Source: Bradyrhizobium sp. Ec3.3
GTDB lineage: Bacteria; Pseudomonadota; Alphaproteobacteria; Rhizobiales; Xanthobacteraceae
Length of the DNA: 64,000 nucleotides
Assembly: GCF_000472925.1 (NCBI RefSeq)
Contig: NZ_AXAS01000010.1
Span: 124,001-188,000, forward strand
Direction of reading: 5' to 3'
Shown here: positions 51,236 through 54,123 of the stretch, piece by piece
How positions within the stretch are numbered: the stretch's first letter is position 1
Layout of the letters: every line of letters begins with the position of its first letter
Made by a program: the position numbers and the translations under genes
The notes under the pieces: generated by a model
Databases searched by the model: none
Told to the model about the DNA's origin: nothing
The model's input: only the letters and a program-made list of their open reading frames with translations

Positions 51236-52129
51236 ATGGTCGCGCCGAAACGAGGGATCTTGGCCTTGAGCGCAGGCAAGTCGGCAGCAGCGGTGGTTGA
51301 GCTGGGGACGGTCAGGTTCGGCAATGACCTGCCGATCGCGGTCATTGCCGGCCCGTGCCAGCTCGAGAGCAGGGCGCATGCACTGGAGGTGGCCTCCGCT
51401 TTGAAGGAGATCGCCACCCGTCTGAAAGTCGGCCTCGTCTACAAGACGTCCTTCGACAAGGCCAACCGCACCAGCGCGTCGGCCGCGCGGGGACTGGGCT
51501 TGGCGCAATCGCTGCCGATCTTCGCCGAGATCCGCTCGTCGCTGGGCTTGCCAGTGCTCACCGACGTGCACGATGCGGCGCAATGCGCCGAGGTCGCGCA
51601 GGCCGTCGACGTCCTGCAGATCCCGGCCTTCCTGTGCCGGCAGACTGATCTCCTGCTGGCTGCCGCAGCAACCGGCAAGGTCGTCAACGTCAAAAAGGGG
51701 CAGTTTCTGGCGCCCTGGGACATGGCGAATGTCGTGACCAAGATCACGAGCGCCAATAATTCCAACGTGCTCGTCACCGAGCGCGGCGCCTCCTTCGGCT
51801 ACAATACGCTCGTATCAGACATGCGAGCGCTGCCGATCTTGGCACGCACCACCGGCGCGCCTGTGATCTTTGATGCCACGCATTCCGTGCAGCAGCCGGG
51901 CGGGAAAGGTGCTTCTTCCGGCGGCGAGCGCGAATTCGTGCCGGTACTGGCGCGTGCGGCAGTCGCGGTCGGCGTCGCCGGTGTCTTCATCGAGACGCAT
52001 CCCGATCCCGACCATGCGCCGTCCGACGGACCGAACATGGTGCCTTTGCTTGAGTTCGAAGGCCTCATCCGGACGCTGATGGCGTTCGACGCGGTGGCGA
52101 AAAATCCGTCGCAGGCCGGCGCGCGCTGA
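51236..52129 (+). CDS. kdsA: 3-deoxy-8-phosphooctulonate synthase
   Basis: 297 residues. Condenses phosphoenolpyruvate and arabinose 5-phosphate for lipopolysaccharide core synthesis. Recognised: VIAGPCQLESRAHALE, YKTSFDKANRTS, LTDVHDAAQCAEVAQ, FLCRQTDLLLAAA, KKGQFLAPWDM and DATHSVQQPGG. The start may instead be the TTG at 51263, which has GGGA upstream. The stop shares one base with the next gene's ATG (TGATG). Confidence 0.96.
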   Translation: MVAPKRGILALSAGKSAAAVVELGTVRFGNDLPIAVIAGPCQLESRAHALEVASALKEIATRLKVGLVYKTSFDKANRTSASAARGLGLAQSLPIFAEIRSSLGLPVLTDVHDAAQCAEVAQAVDVLQIPAFLCRQTDLLLAAAATGKVVNVKKGQFLAPWDMANVVTKITSANNSNVLVTERGASFGYNTLVSDMRALPILARTTGAPVIFDATHSVQQPGGKGASSGGEREFVPVLARAAVAVGVAGVFIETHPDPDHAPSDGPNMVPLLEFEGLIRTLMAFDAVAKNPSQAGAR

Positions 52130-53334
52130 TGCCGCAAGGGGAGGCGCGGCCGCACGATCACGGCTTGCCGCCAGCGCTCTACGTCATCTCAGGTGCGAGC
52201 TTTGCGGCGGCGCTCTCGGCCCGGGCGCTCGATCCGCTGCTGCCGCACATCGCCGAGGATTTTCAGGTCAGCATCGCGACCGCCGCGGGCTTTGCCGCGG
52301 TCTTCGCCTTCACTTTCGCGATCATCCAGCCGCTGATCGGCGCCGCCGCCGATCTCTTCGGCAAGACGCGGCTGATGATCGGCTGCCTCGCGGTGCTCGG
52401 CGTCGCCAGCATCCTCGGTGCGCTCTCGACCTCGTTCTCGCTGCTGTTTGCCACCCGTATCCTGGCCGGTATCGGCTCCGGCGGCGTGTTTCCGATTGCG
52501 CTCAGCCTGACCAGCGATCTCGTCGGTCCAGAGAAGCGGCAGATCGCGATCGGCCGCACGCTCGCCGGCGCCATGACCGGCAATCTCCTCGGTGCATCTG
52601 CGTCCGGCCTGATCGGCGACTTCCTCGGTTGGCGCGGCGTGCTCGCCGTGCTCGGTGTGCTGGTGATCATCGCTTCGGTCGCGGTTGCGGCCGGATTCAG
52701 TGGCGCCAGGATCAAGCATCCGCCGAGGACGAGCCTCTCGGCGCTGAAGACGGGCTATCGCACCATCTTCACCAATCCGAACGCACCGGTGTGCTACTCG
52801 GCCGTGTTCGTCGAAGGCTGCTGCGTGCTCGGCCTCTTCCCTTACGTCGCCTCGTTCCTGTTCGACCTCGGCGAGACCTCGCTCTCAATTGCCGGCATCG
52901 TCATCGCGGGCTTTGCGGTCGGCGGGCTGTTTTACACCATGACGGTGTCGCGCCTTCTGCCACGACTTGGCGTCAAGGGCATGATGATCGCGGGCACCGT
53001 GCTAGTGGCCTCGCAACTCGTCGCCGTCGCGTTCGGTCCGCGCTGGGAAGTCCAGACGCTCAACCTCGTCGTGATGGGCTGGGGCTTCTACATGGCCCAT
53101 GGCTGCCTACAGGTGTTTGCCAGCGAGCTATCGGTCGAGGCACGCGCCACCGCGCTGTCGCTGCACTCGTTCTTCTTCTTCATGGGCCAGACCGTCGGCC
53201 CGATCGCCTATGGCTTTGGCCTCGCGCATGGGGGCAAGGGGCCGACCCTGTTCGCAAGCGCCGGGATCATGGTGGTGCTGGGGCTGGTCTGCGCGAAGCT
53301 CCTCAAGCAGCGCGCTCCGGCGGATGCGCGCTGA
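52129..53334 (+). CDS. MFS transporter (drug:H+ antiporter type)
   Basis: 401 residues with twelve membrane segments. DPLLPHIAEDF, then FAIIQPLIGAAADLFGKTRLM in loop 2-3, and RILAGIGSGGVFPIALSL in segment 4 fit DHA-type exporters. The start codon overlaps the kdsA stop by one base, so translation is coupled to kdsA, an unusual partner. No regulator is adjacent. Substrate unknown. Confidence 0.88.
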   Translation: MPQGEARPHDHGLPPALYVISGASFAAALSARALDPLLPHIAEDFQVSIATAAGFAAVFAFTFAIIQPLIGAAADLFGKTRLMIGCLAVLGVASILGALSTSFSLLFATRILAGIGSGGVFPIALSLTSDLVGPEKRQIAIGRTLAGAMTGNLLGASASGLIGDFLGWRGVLAVLGVLVIIASVAVAAGFSGARIKHPPRTSLSALKTGYRTIFTNPNAPVCYSAVFVEGCCVLGLFPYVASFLFDLGETSLSIAGIVIAGFAVGGLFYTMTVSRLLPRLGVKGMMIAGTVLVASQLVAVAFGPRWEVQTLNLVVMGWGFYMAHGCLQVFASELSVEARATALSLHSFFFFMGQTVGPIAYGFGLAHGGKGPTLFASAGIMVVLGLVCAKLLKQRAPADAR

Positions 53335-53392
53335 GACCGACGCGGACATCTAATCTTCCCATATAGTAGGGGAGTATTCCGAGGAGGTCTGA

Positions 53393-53560
53393 TTGGACTG
53401 GTCCGAAGTGGTACGGAAAGCCGCCATCCTGGCGGAGAAGACGGGTCACATTACCTTTGATCAACTGAACGAATTGATCCCATCCAAGATGGAACCGGAA
53501 GACGTTGAAGCTCTACTGACGGCTTTGAGCGAACAAGGCATTTGGATTGCGGAGGAATAG
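53393..53560 (+). CDS. Stand-alone sigma-70 region 1.1 domain protein (55 aa)
   Basis: 55 residues from a TTG at 53393 with a strong GAGGAGG five bases upstream. MDWSEVVRKAAILAEKTG, then HITFDQLNELIPSKMEP and EDVEALLTALSEQGIWIAEE read as the sigma-70 region 1.1 domain (LxxLAxxxGYVTxDQINDxLP..xPExxEDIxxxLxxxGI), with no other sigma parts following. Region 1.1 is acidic and occupies the DNA channel of RNA polymerase. So a free copy could act on the polymerase; that is inference. It ends nine bases before queF's stop (convergent). Confidence 0.8.
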   Translation: MDWSEVVRKAAILAEKTGHITFDQLNELIPSKMEPEDVEALLTALSEQGIWIAEE

Positions 53561-53568
53561 GGCCACCT

Positions 53569-54024
53569 TTAGCCCCGCCCGCGATAGGGCGCCACACCCT
53601 GCTCCGGCACCCACAATCCCTTCGGCACGCGGCCGGTCTGCCAGAACACGTCGATCGGGATGCCGCCGCGCGGATACCAGTAGCCACCGATCCTTATCCA
53701 TTTCGGCTTGATCTCGGATGCGATGCGCTTGCCGATCATCACGGTGCAGTCCTCGTGGAAGGCGCCGTGATTGCGGAAGCTCGCGACGTAGAGCTTTAGC
53801 GATTTCGACTCCAGCAGCCACTGGCCCGGTGCGTAGTCGATCATGAGATGGGCGAAATCCGGCTGTCCCGTGACCGGGCAGATCGATGTGAATTCCGGCA
53901 CGGTGAAGCGCACCAGATAGTCTGTGCCCTTCTGCGGGTTGGGCACACGGTCGAGCTGGGCTTCTTCCGGTGTGTGCGGCCATTCGACCGCACGGCCGAG
54001 CTGGAGGGGTTTTTTCGCCATCAT
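53569..54024 (-). CDS. queF: 7-cyano-7-deazaguanine reductase (queuosine)
   Basis: 151 residues. Reduces preQ0 to preQ1 with NADPH in queuosine synthesis. It is the short type-I form with the catalytic Cys in [12 protein letters not shown] and the QueF motif [22 protein letters not shown] (in part [13 protein letters not shown]). The start is set at the ATG at 54024, six bases after AAAGG. No preQ1 riboswitch is evident upstream; an inverted repeat fills the gap. Confidence 0.95.
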
Positions 54025-54038
54025 TTGCATCCTTTTGC

Positions 54039-54084
54039 AGCATGATCCGGAAAAGTGGACACCGGTTTTCCGAAGGGATCATGC
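54039..54084. repeat. Interspersed inverted repeat (AGCATGATC family)
   Basis: AGCATGATC-CGGAAAA near 54039 faces TTTTCC-GAAG-GGATCATGCT at the right end, with ACCGG in the middle. It is related at its ends to the repeat at 43069-43165. Confidence 0.7.
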
Positions 54085-54096
54085 TCAATCAAAAAG

Positions 54097-54123
54097 CTAG
54101 AGCGCGATCGGATCGCGCTCTAG
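54097..54123. repeat. Perfect 13-bp inverted repeat
   Basis: CTAGAGCGCGATC and its exact complement are separated by one base. It lies directly after the AGCATGATC repeat and before the convergent-side lactonase-like gene. Likely part of the same repetitive element. Confidence 0.7.

Follow-up and report, generated by a model that had tools for sequence, protein, structure and literature searches.

A 55-codon ORF in the window, as we term the 64,000-nucleotide stretch of Bradyrhizobium sp. Ec3.3 DNA analyzed here, is by its substitution pattern a real gene under purifying selection, and its product reads as a free-standing copy of region 1.1, the autoinhibitory plug of the housekeeping sigma factor (Table 1). 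As judged by the phylogeny, the mini-genes of this kind are a small-protein family of Bradyrhizobium that forms a clade apart from region 1.1 of RpoD. Here, we propose that the mini-protein may be a trans-acting plug on core RNA polymerase and on holoenzymes whose sigma factor lacks region 1.1, a reading to which we give a probability of roughly 45%. A natural, selected free region 1.1 would provide a direct test of whether channel occupancy is regulated in trans, and also of discrimination between sigma factors, and the subfamilies with an upstream LexA box would tie region 1.1 mini-genes to DNA damage.

Table 1 Features of the window at and around the region 1.1 mini-gene
Feature	Position	Strand	Basis
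Free-standing sigma region 1.1 domain gene (predicted), 55 aa, TTG start, TAG stop	53393..53560	+	PF03979, conserved frame, dN/dS, predicted fold
Shine-Dalgarno GAGGAGG, 5 bases before TTG	53381..53387	+	Direct reading
Upstream neighbor, MFS-type transporter (named by reading)	52129..53334	+	
Downstream convergent neighbor	53569..54030	-	
Leader-plus-gene unit, up to ~210 bp, homologous to the unit beside the enoyl-CoA hydratase gene of relatives	53350..53561	+	
Conserved leader motif TCYYYCCnTWTAGTAGRRRC (last base A, not C, in the window)	53354..53373	+	Alignment A3

The coordinates, reading frame, TTG start, and stop given for this ORF in the earlier note were all correct when read from the sequence, as was its GAGGAGG site; GGAG-like sites occur at the same position in most of the relatives read. 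The earlier note had also described the product as an isolated region 1.1 domain with its own gene and with nothing of regions 1.2–4 following, and the Pfam check that it proposed agrees with this description. The 55-aa protein matched PF03979 (Sigma70_r1_1) at 26.8 bits against the curated cut-off of 22.5 (E = 5.1e-6; residues 14–55 on positions 14–56 of the 81 in the profile), the frame is conserved in relatives, and the stop codon at 53558–53560 is followed by the convergent gene from 53569. The protein thus has no regions 1.2–4 and does not belong with the sigma-70 factors. No Pfam family other than PF03979 appeared up to E = 10, and the NCBIfam rows were two sigma factor models (RpoD; RNA polymerase sigma factor), both far below their cut-offs. 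When ten further family proteins were compared with PF03979, seven passed and three failed (L053 with 20.8, L013 with 15.8, and L006 with no match). Rfam (gathering scores) and ARAGORN gave nothing within the window.

The nearest solved relatives by sequence were RpoD chains (best E = 0.001). The AlphaFold2 model built from a 26-row alignment (pLDDT 79.8, pTM 0.56) has the predicted order helix-strand-helix-helix-strand. In a Foldseek search of the PDB, the top three rows were sigma region 1.1 chains with E values of 0.15–0.45, none reaching 0.001. The top row of VIA was residues 7–58 of the Escherichia coli sigma factor (8to1; Z 6.8, rmsd 2.0, 51 aligned), followed by region 1.1 of Bacillus subtilis SigA (5mww; Z 6.3) and SigA–RpoC (9a58; Z 6.2), all Z scores being below 8 and therefore modest for a 55-residue model. 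The fourth row was a non-sigma protein, the uncharacterized mycobacterial orthologue of Rv0543c (3ol3; Z 6.0, 53 residues, 11% identity). The predicted sigma region 1.1 fold is thus drawn from sequence and structure jointly, and the main weight lies on the sequence match.

Nine close orthologues, 76 to 84% identical to the window protein, were compared with the window gene. Lack of conservation of the TTG-initiated frame in relatives had been named beforehand as evidence against the gene. The frame itself is kept in all nine; the TTG is not, as ATG stands at the same codon in every one of them and TTG occurs in the window copy only. The median dN/dS was 0.10 and the maximum 0.18 (NG86; 44 of the 45 pairs of the ten genes, with dS > 0.05), the single values being rough because dS exceeds 1 in 14 pairs. 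The window gene and the nine orthologues (486 codons) differ at 68, 28, and 213 sites at codon positions 1, 2, and 3, respectively. Some copies in the family are broken: that of G282 by a frameshift, L152 by the lack of an in-frame start, and L161 and L163 by truncation. Because of these broken copies and the patchy distribution of the family (68 of 265 genomes, see below), the gene is dispensable and not essential.

A PF03979 search of the same genome gave two matches above the cut-off, full-length RpoD (a 722-aa frame) and the 55-aa ORF. The start of this RpoD reads ...LLDLSDAAVKKMIKQAKKRGFVTFDQLNEVLPSDQTSPEQIEDIMSMLSDMGINVTEADDSEGEDDKDEG..., and the mini-protein aligns with it from LDLS to the A preceding the acidic run. 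By this alignment, the mini-protein is the globular core of region 1.1 without the acidic linker: it ends at ...WIAEE, where RpoD goes on with ADDSEGEDDKDEGGEDEND. The two resemble each other in sequence family (above the curated cut-off), predicted core fold, and acidity, whereas the mini-protein is encoded alone, lacks the linker and regions 1.2–4, belongs to its own clade, and has a more acidic core. Its net charge is −8 (mean of 26 members, −7.9), compared with −4 for the matched core of RpoD. The earlier suggestion that a free copy might replace the domain in the sigma factor is not supported; region 1.1 is still present in the RpoD of this genome, and therefore the mini-gene replaces nothing.

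The survey for conserved stand-alone copies proposed in the earlier note located the family in 68 of 265 Bradyrhizobium genomes with profile A2 (78 matches at E ≤ 3e-18, no frame longer than 442 aa). This cut-off admits no RpoD, the two listed RpoD rows of the genus lying at 1.0e-17 and 1.3e-17; the 78 matches include fusions (G077, G179, and G240) and the broken copy of G282, and starts were read for part of them. Nine genomes have two or three matches each. A single-query search matched 70 of the 265 genomes at E ≤ 1e-8. Of the 35 loci confirmed in the named collection, 30 belong to Bradyrhizobium records, one comes from a Xanthobacteraceae MAG, and one comes from a record labeled Frankia sp. 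RB7, a label that may be wrong; the remaining three are ordinary sigma factors from other phyla. In a survey of the class (385 genomes, 76 of them matching at E ≤ 1e-12, a threshold too strict for weak stand-alone copies), only the window gene had a short frame, and the other matches lay in frames of at least 407 aa. At least one short copy lies outside the genus, in another genus of the same bacterial family (G327). The earlier profile A1 contained a row of a ClpX fusion, so that the family survey made with it also matched ClpX-like proteins. In a tree of 44 rows, which has few columns and many unresolved forks, one branch separates all 33 stand-alone rows from the ten RpoD rows (100/100).

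Several members are fusions of ~120 to 126 aa, in which region 1.1 is followed by a ClpX-type C4 zinc finger (L045/L061 in G077, L062 in G240, and L063 in G179). L045 matched zf-C4_ClpX with E = 3.2e-14 and Sigma70_r1_1 with 2.3e-6; L062 and L063 were recognized as fusions from their profile matches and by reading. L061 is of the MDWSE type, while L062 and L063 have neighbors in common, and the fusion may therefore have arisen twice. L006 is a degenerate version of the zinc-finger fusion.

Fifty of the 78 genes had a placeable start and were sorted by N-terminal pattern, not by the tree. Sixteen are of type 1 (MDWSE; including the window gene and the fusion L045), 11 of type 2 (M.VPEI), 12 of type 3 (MRLQDAI-like), and seven of type 4 (MDLSAII-like), with four others. 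The sequence GTTC-N7-GTTC is given as the alphaproteobacterial LexA box in passages of two papers (PMC3323433, PMC8565304). It occurs within 150 bases upstream of ten of the 12 type 3 genes and all seven type 4 genes (17/19), at −70 to −99; of the two type 3 genes that lack it, one has a box with N8 spacing. No such box lies within this range in the 27 genes of types 1 and 2 (type 1, 0/16) or in the four others; the type 1 gene L049 has one at −163, beyond the range, and none was found within 300 bases upstream of the window gene. About 0.13 boxes would be expected by chance in 46 such stretches, and since the genes are related, 17/19 reflects a few events, not 17 independent ones.

In Pfam scans of the neighbors, one locus per type, the type 3 gene had DUF2865, a carbohydrate phosphorylase, and a protein with no Pfam hit nearby. 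The type 4 gene lies between carboxylase and nuclease-like genes, its neighbors being a subunit of the biotin carboxylase type, a PEP-mutase-like protein, a nuclease-like protein, and a histidine kinase. Because these are not repair genes, the small gene itself is the likeliest target of the putative LexA box in both types. The type 1 neighbor is an enoyl-CoA hydratase gene, and one type 2 copy adjoins an AraC-type regulator. Across the type loci no conserved partner gene or operon was found, and the subfamilies lie in unrelated places.

The window copy sits elsewhere than its orthologues. In ten relatives, one of which has a broken copy, the type 1 gene adjoins the same hydratase-family gene (enoyl-CoA hydratase by Pfam at L071). 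In the Ec3.3 genome, the corresponding hydratase (88% identical) and LysR genes are adjacent; the matches are ~84 bases apart, compared with 281 bases in G229, and no small gene separates them. The window copy lies between the MFS-type transporter gene and the convergent gene, which we take to be QueF-like. A search of 14 genomes located both of these flanks in every one (split over two contigs in G147), and the interval between them holds no copy in the ten relatives read, apart from a 15-base match of chance length in L123. The homology extends over 53350–53559 in L078, 53356–53561 in L075, and only 53394–53561 in L071; between the two places it covers at most the leader and the gene, give or take a few bases. 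Signs of a transposable element or MITE were sought in 53290–53620, and neither direct repeats nor terminal inverted repeats were found; the only inverted pair there is 10 nt long, inside the gene and not terminal.

Two repeat-like features were also noticed. A repeat-like stretch at 54039–54108 of the window, upstream of the presumed QueF-like gene, has an 84.5% copy in the MFS–queF gap of G282. The N-terminal 30 to 45 residues of an over-long hydratase frame match short unrelated places on contigs C14, C36, C63, and C65, which suggests that this part of the frame may be a dispersed repeat read as protein.

A phage or plasmid origin was considered and rejected: viral contigs gave 106 pattern stretches, none of which was confirmed as a relative, and the one match among phage records looks on reading like the beginning of a longer sigma factor. 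Matches in 18 plasmid records comprise six annotated as rpoD, one with a region1.1 name, and 11 unannotated at the match (nine with "none" and two in records lacking annotation). Two of the plasmid matches were read; one is a full RpoD and the other a 177-aa protein of Microvirga. The window protein matched neither PHROG nor PADLOC models. The L008 protein has a weak PADLOC match to the candidate PDC-M69B at its C-terminal end (E = 0.0082).

The leader motif listed in Table 1 was derived from alignment A3, in which GTRG is retained in 42 rows, the rows having been chosen partly for the motif. Loci without a clear motif, or which are copies or near-copies, were left out of A3 (L006, L013, L014, L036, L038, L044, L045, L047, L053, L133–L141, L143, L144, L146, L147, L151, and L153–L155), and the fusions L061–L063 and the loci L064–L070 were also unused. 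For 42 of the 50 genes, the 65 bases upstream contain a short form, C-N5-GTRGR, compared with one occurrence in a control stretch 300 to 365 bases upstream; it is missing from the leaders of L010, L013, L014, L045, L047, L053, L153, and L160. In the Ec3.3 genome, the core leader pattern is present at two places and a reversed control pattern nowhere. The second place, C58:174192–174209 (L168), lies ~65 bases before a tyrosine-phosphatase-like gene (named by reading) and may be due to chance.

By eye, the arms flanking TAGTA look complementary, as does the pyrimidine tract to the Shine-Dalgarno sequence, and an RNA hairpin was therefore tried as a candidate. RNAalifold predicted no pairs in the leader, no stem register covaried, and eight leaders taken singly did not clearly exceed their shuffles in stability (z from −1.47 to +0.40). 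Since these structure tests were negative, we report the leader as a sequence motif alone. A promoter reading, with TWTAGT resembling a −10 element, was likewise disfavored: no clear −35 element was seen by eye, and a sigma-70 scan of 53200–53700 found none. The sole terminator-like site in that stretch (53522–53539, plus strand) is inside the gene.

The proposed mechanism is as follows. The free, acidic, winged-helix-like core of region 1.1 would sit in the downstream-DNA channel of RNA polymerase as a plug that can be removed. It would have least effect on the RpoD holoenzyme because the mini-protein is untethered and RpoD's own copy fills the channel. The effect would be greatest on the core enzyme and on holoenzymes whose sigma factor lacks region 1.1, where DNA entry would be damped, and damping of these holoenzymes would shift transcription toward RpoD promoters. 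We infer that the protein is produced, that it binds the polymerase, and that it has this holoenzyme preference and direction of effect. In one report (PMC2613000), region 1.1 is believed to fill the primary channel until DNA enters. In passages of another (PMC3778932), isolated sigma70 region 1.1 added in trans restored full Gp2 sensitivity to polymerase with a sigma factor devoid of region 1.1, and it conferred full Gp2 sensitivity on the sigma38 holoenzyme. The free domain can therefore reach the channel if it is not already filled, and by analogy an action of the free mini-protein on the polymerase is plausible. Without Gp2, the same passages state that the isolated domain did not antagonize synthesis by the region 1.1-less holoenzyme, and thus a free plug may be weak or mild alone. 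The construct resembles the mini-protein in being a free region 1.1 that acts on a polymerase having none, but it is a laboratory fragment (residues 1–100) and not the product of a natural gene, it showed its effect in combination with Gp2, and it contains the linker that the mini-protein lacks. A wider picture is tentative: the Bradyrhizobium family might comprise stand-alone regulators of the polymerase channel, carried in self-contained leader-plus-gene units that move among intergenic sites, with two subfamilies under LexA and some members fused to ClpX-type zinc fingers, and might bias transcription against region 1.1-less sigma factors under stress.

Other readings of the same data were weighed. 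The mini-protein might bind free RpoD, taking the sites of its own region 1.1 and thereby altering RpoD loading. Region 1.1 compacts free sigma, and one of the fold matches, 2k6x, bears a title describing a group 1 sigma factor in a compacted structure induced by region 1.1. However, 2k6x aligns worse (Z 2.9) than the other sigma chains, and the tethered copy of RpoD should win intramolecularly, which leaves this reading unlikely. A winged-helix protein divorced from the polymerase, which binds DNA or RNA and perhaps acts on its own leader, would fit a leader motif that is kept across subfamilies of ~50% identity (42/50 leaders) and that, within the genome, is nearly confined to the family. 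We regard this as quite unlikely, because the strongly acidic protein (mean −7.9) is poorly suited to DNA binding and the leader had neither structure nor covariation in the tests run.

It is improbable that the protein is a decoy for phage or plasmid proteins that attack the polymerase through region 1.1, as T7 Gp2 needs to do. In the passages of PMC3778932, full inhibition by Gp2 depends on region 1.1. In the two subfamilies that have it, the LexA box would make expression coincide with damage. However, added region 1.1 raised the inhibition by Gp2 in those passages and did not relieve it, no defense-like setting was seen among the identified neighbors, and no PADLOC family was assigned to the window protein. 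The shortness of the gene, its variable neighbors, and the broken copies (G282, L152, L161, and L163) would suit a fossil without function that arose as a chance piece of a duplicated rpoD. This reading is very improbable given the dN/dS of ~0.10, the conservation of start, ribosome site, and leader, a descent distinct from that of RpoD, and the LexA boxes in two types.

The preferred reading, a free plug acting in trans, can be set beside sigma mimics and split sigmas such as PhyR of Alphaproteobacteria, SigO/RsoA of Bacillus, and T4 gp55/gp33, and also the delta subunit of Firmicutes. In each, a sigma-like or sigma-adjacent module on its own protein acts on transcription, as proposed for the mini-gene, but these proteins mimic regions 2–4 or are polymerase subunits. 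None of them is known to be a free region 1.1, a domain known as a part of the housekeeping sigma factor or as a laboratory fragment. A literature search over titles and the starts of abstracts, with few subscription journals covered, returned no natural stand-alone region 1.1 family. In the passages shown of a cyanobacterial sigma survey by Pfam domain (PMC11119718), region 1.1 is absent from cyanobacterial sigma factors and no free copy is reported, and those of a Bradyrhizobium small-ORF paper (PMC5082802) contain no such gene.

The domain is thus known, and one non-sigma region 1.1 protein has already been named automatically; the mini-genes appear to be a natural stand-alone family. The RefSeq name "RNA polymerase sigma factor region1.1 domain-containing protein" is exemplified by WP_157934620.1 on a plasmid of Microvirga ossetica. 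This protein resembles the mini-protein in having a region 1.1 domain outside a sigma factor, but it is 177 aa long with extra N- and C-terminal parts, has WGR-domain genes nearby, and is placed by the tree among the RpoD rows, not in the mini-gene family. At its locus (L130:5842–6375), the adjoining WGR-domain genes are small, and a recombinase gene and an IS110 transposase gene are not far away.
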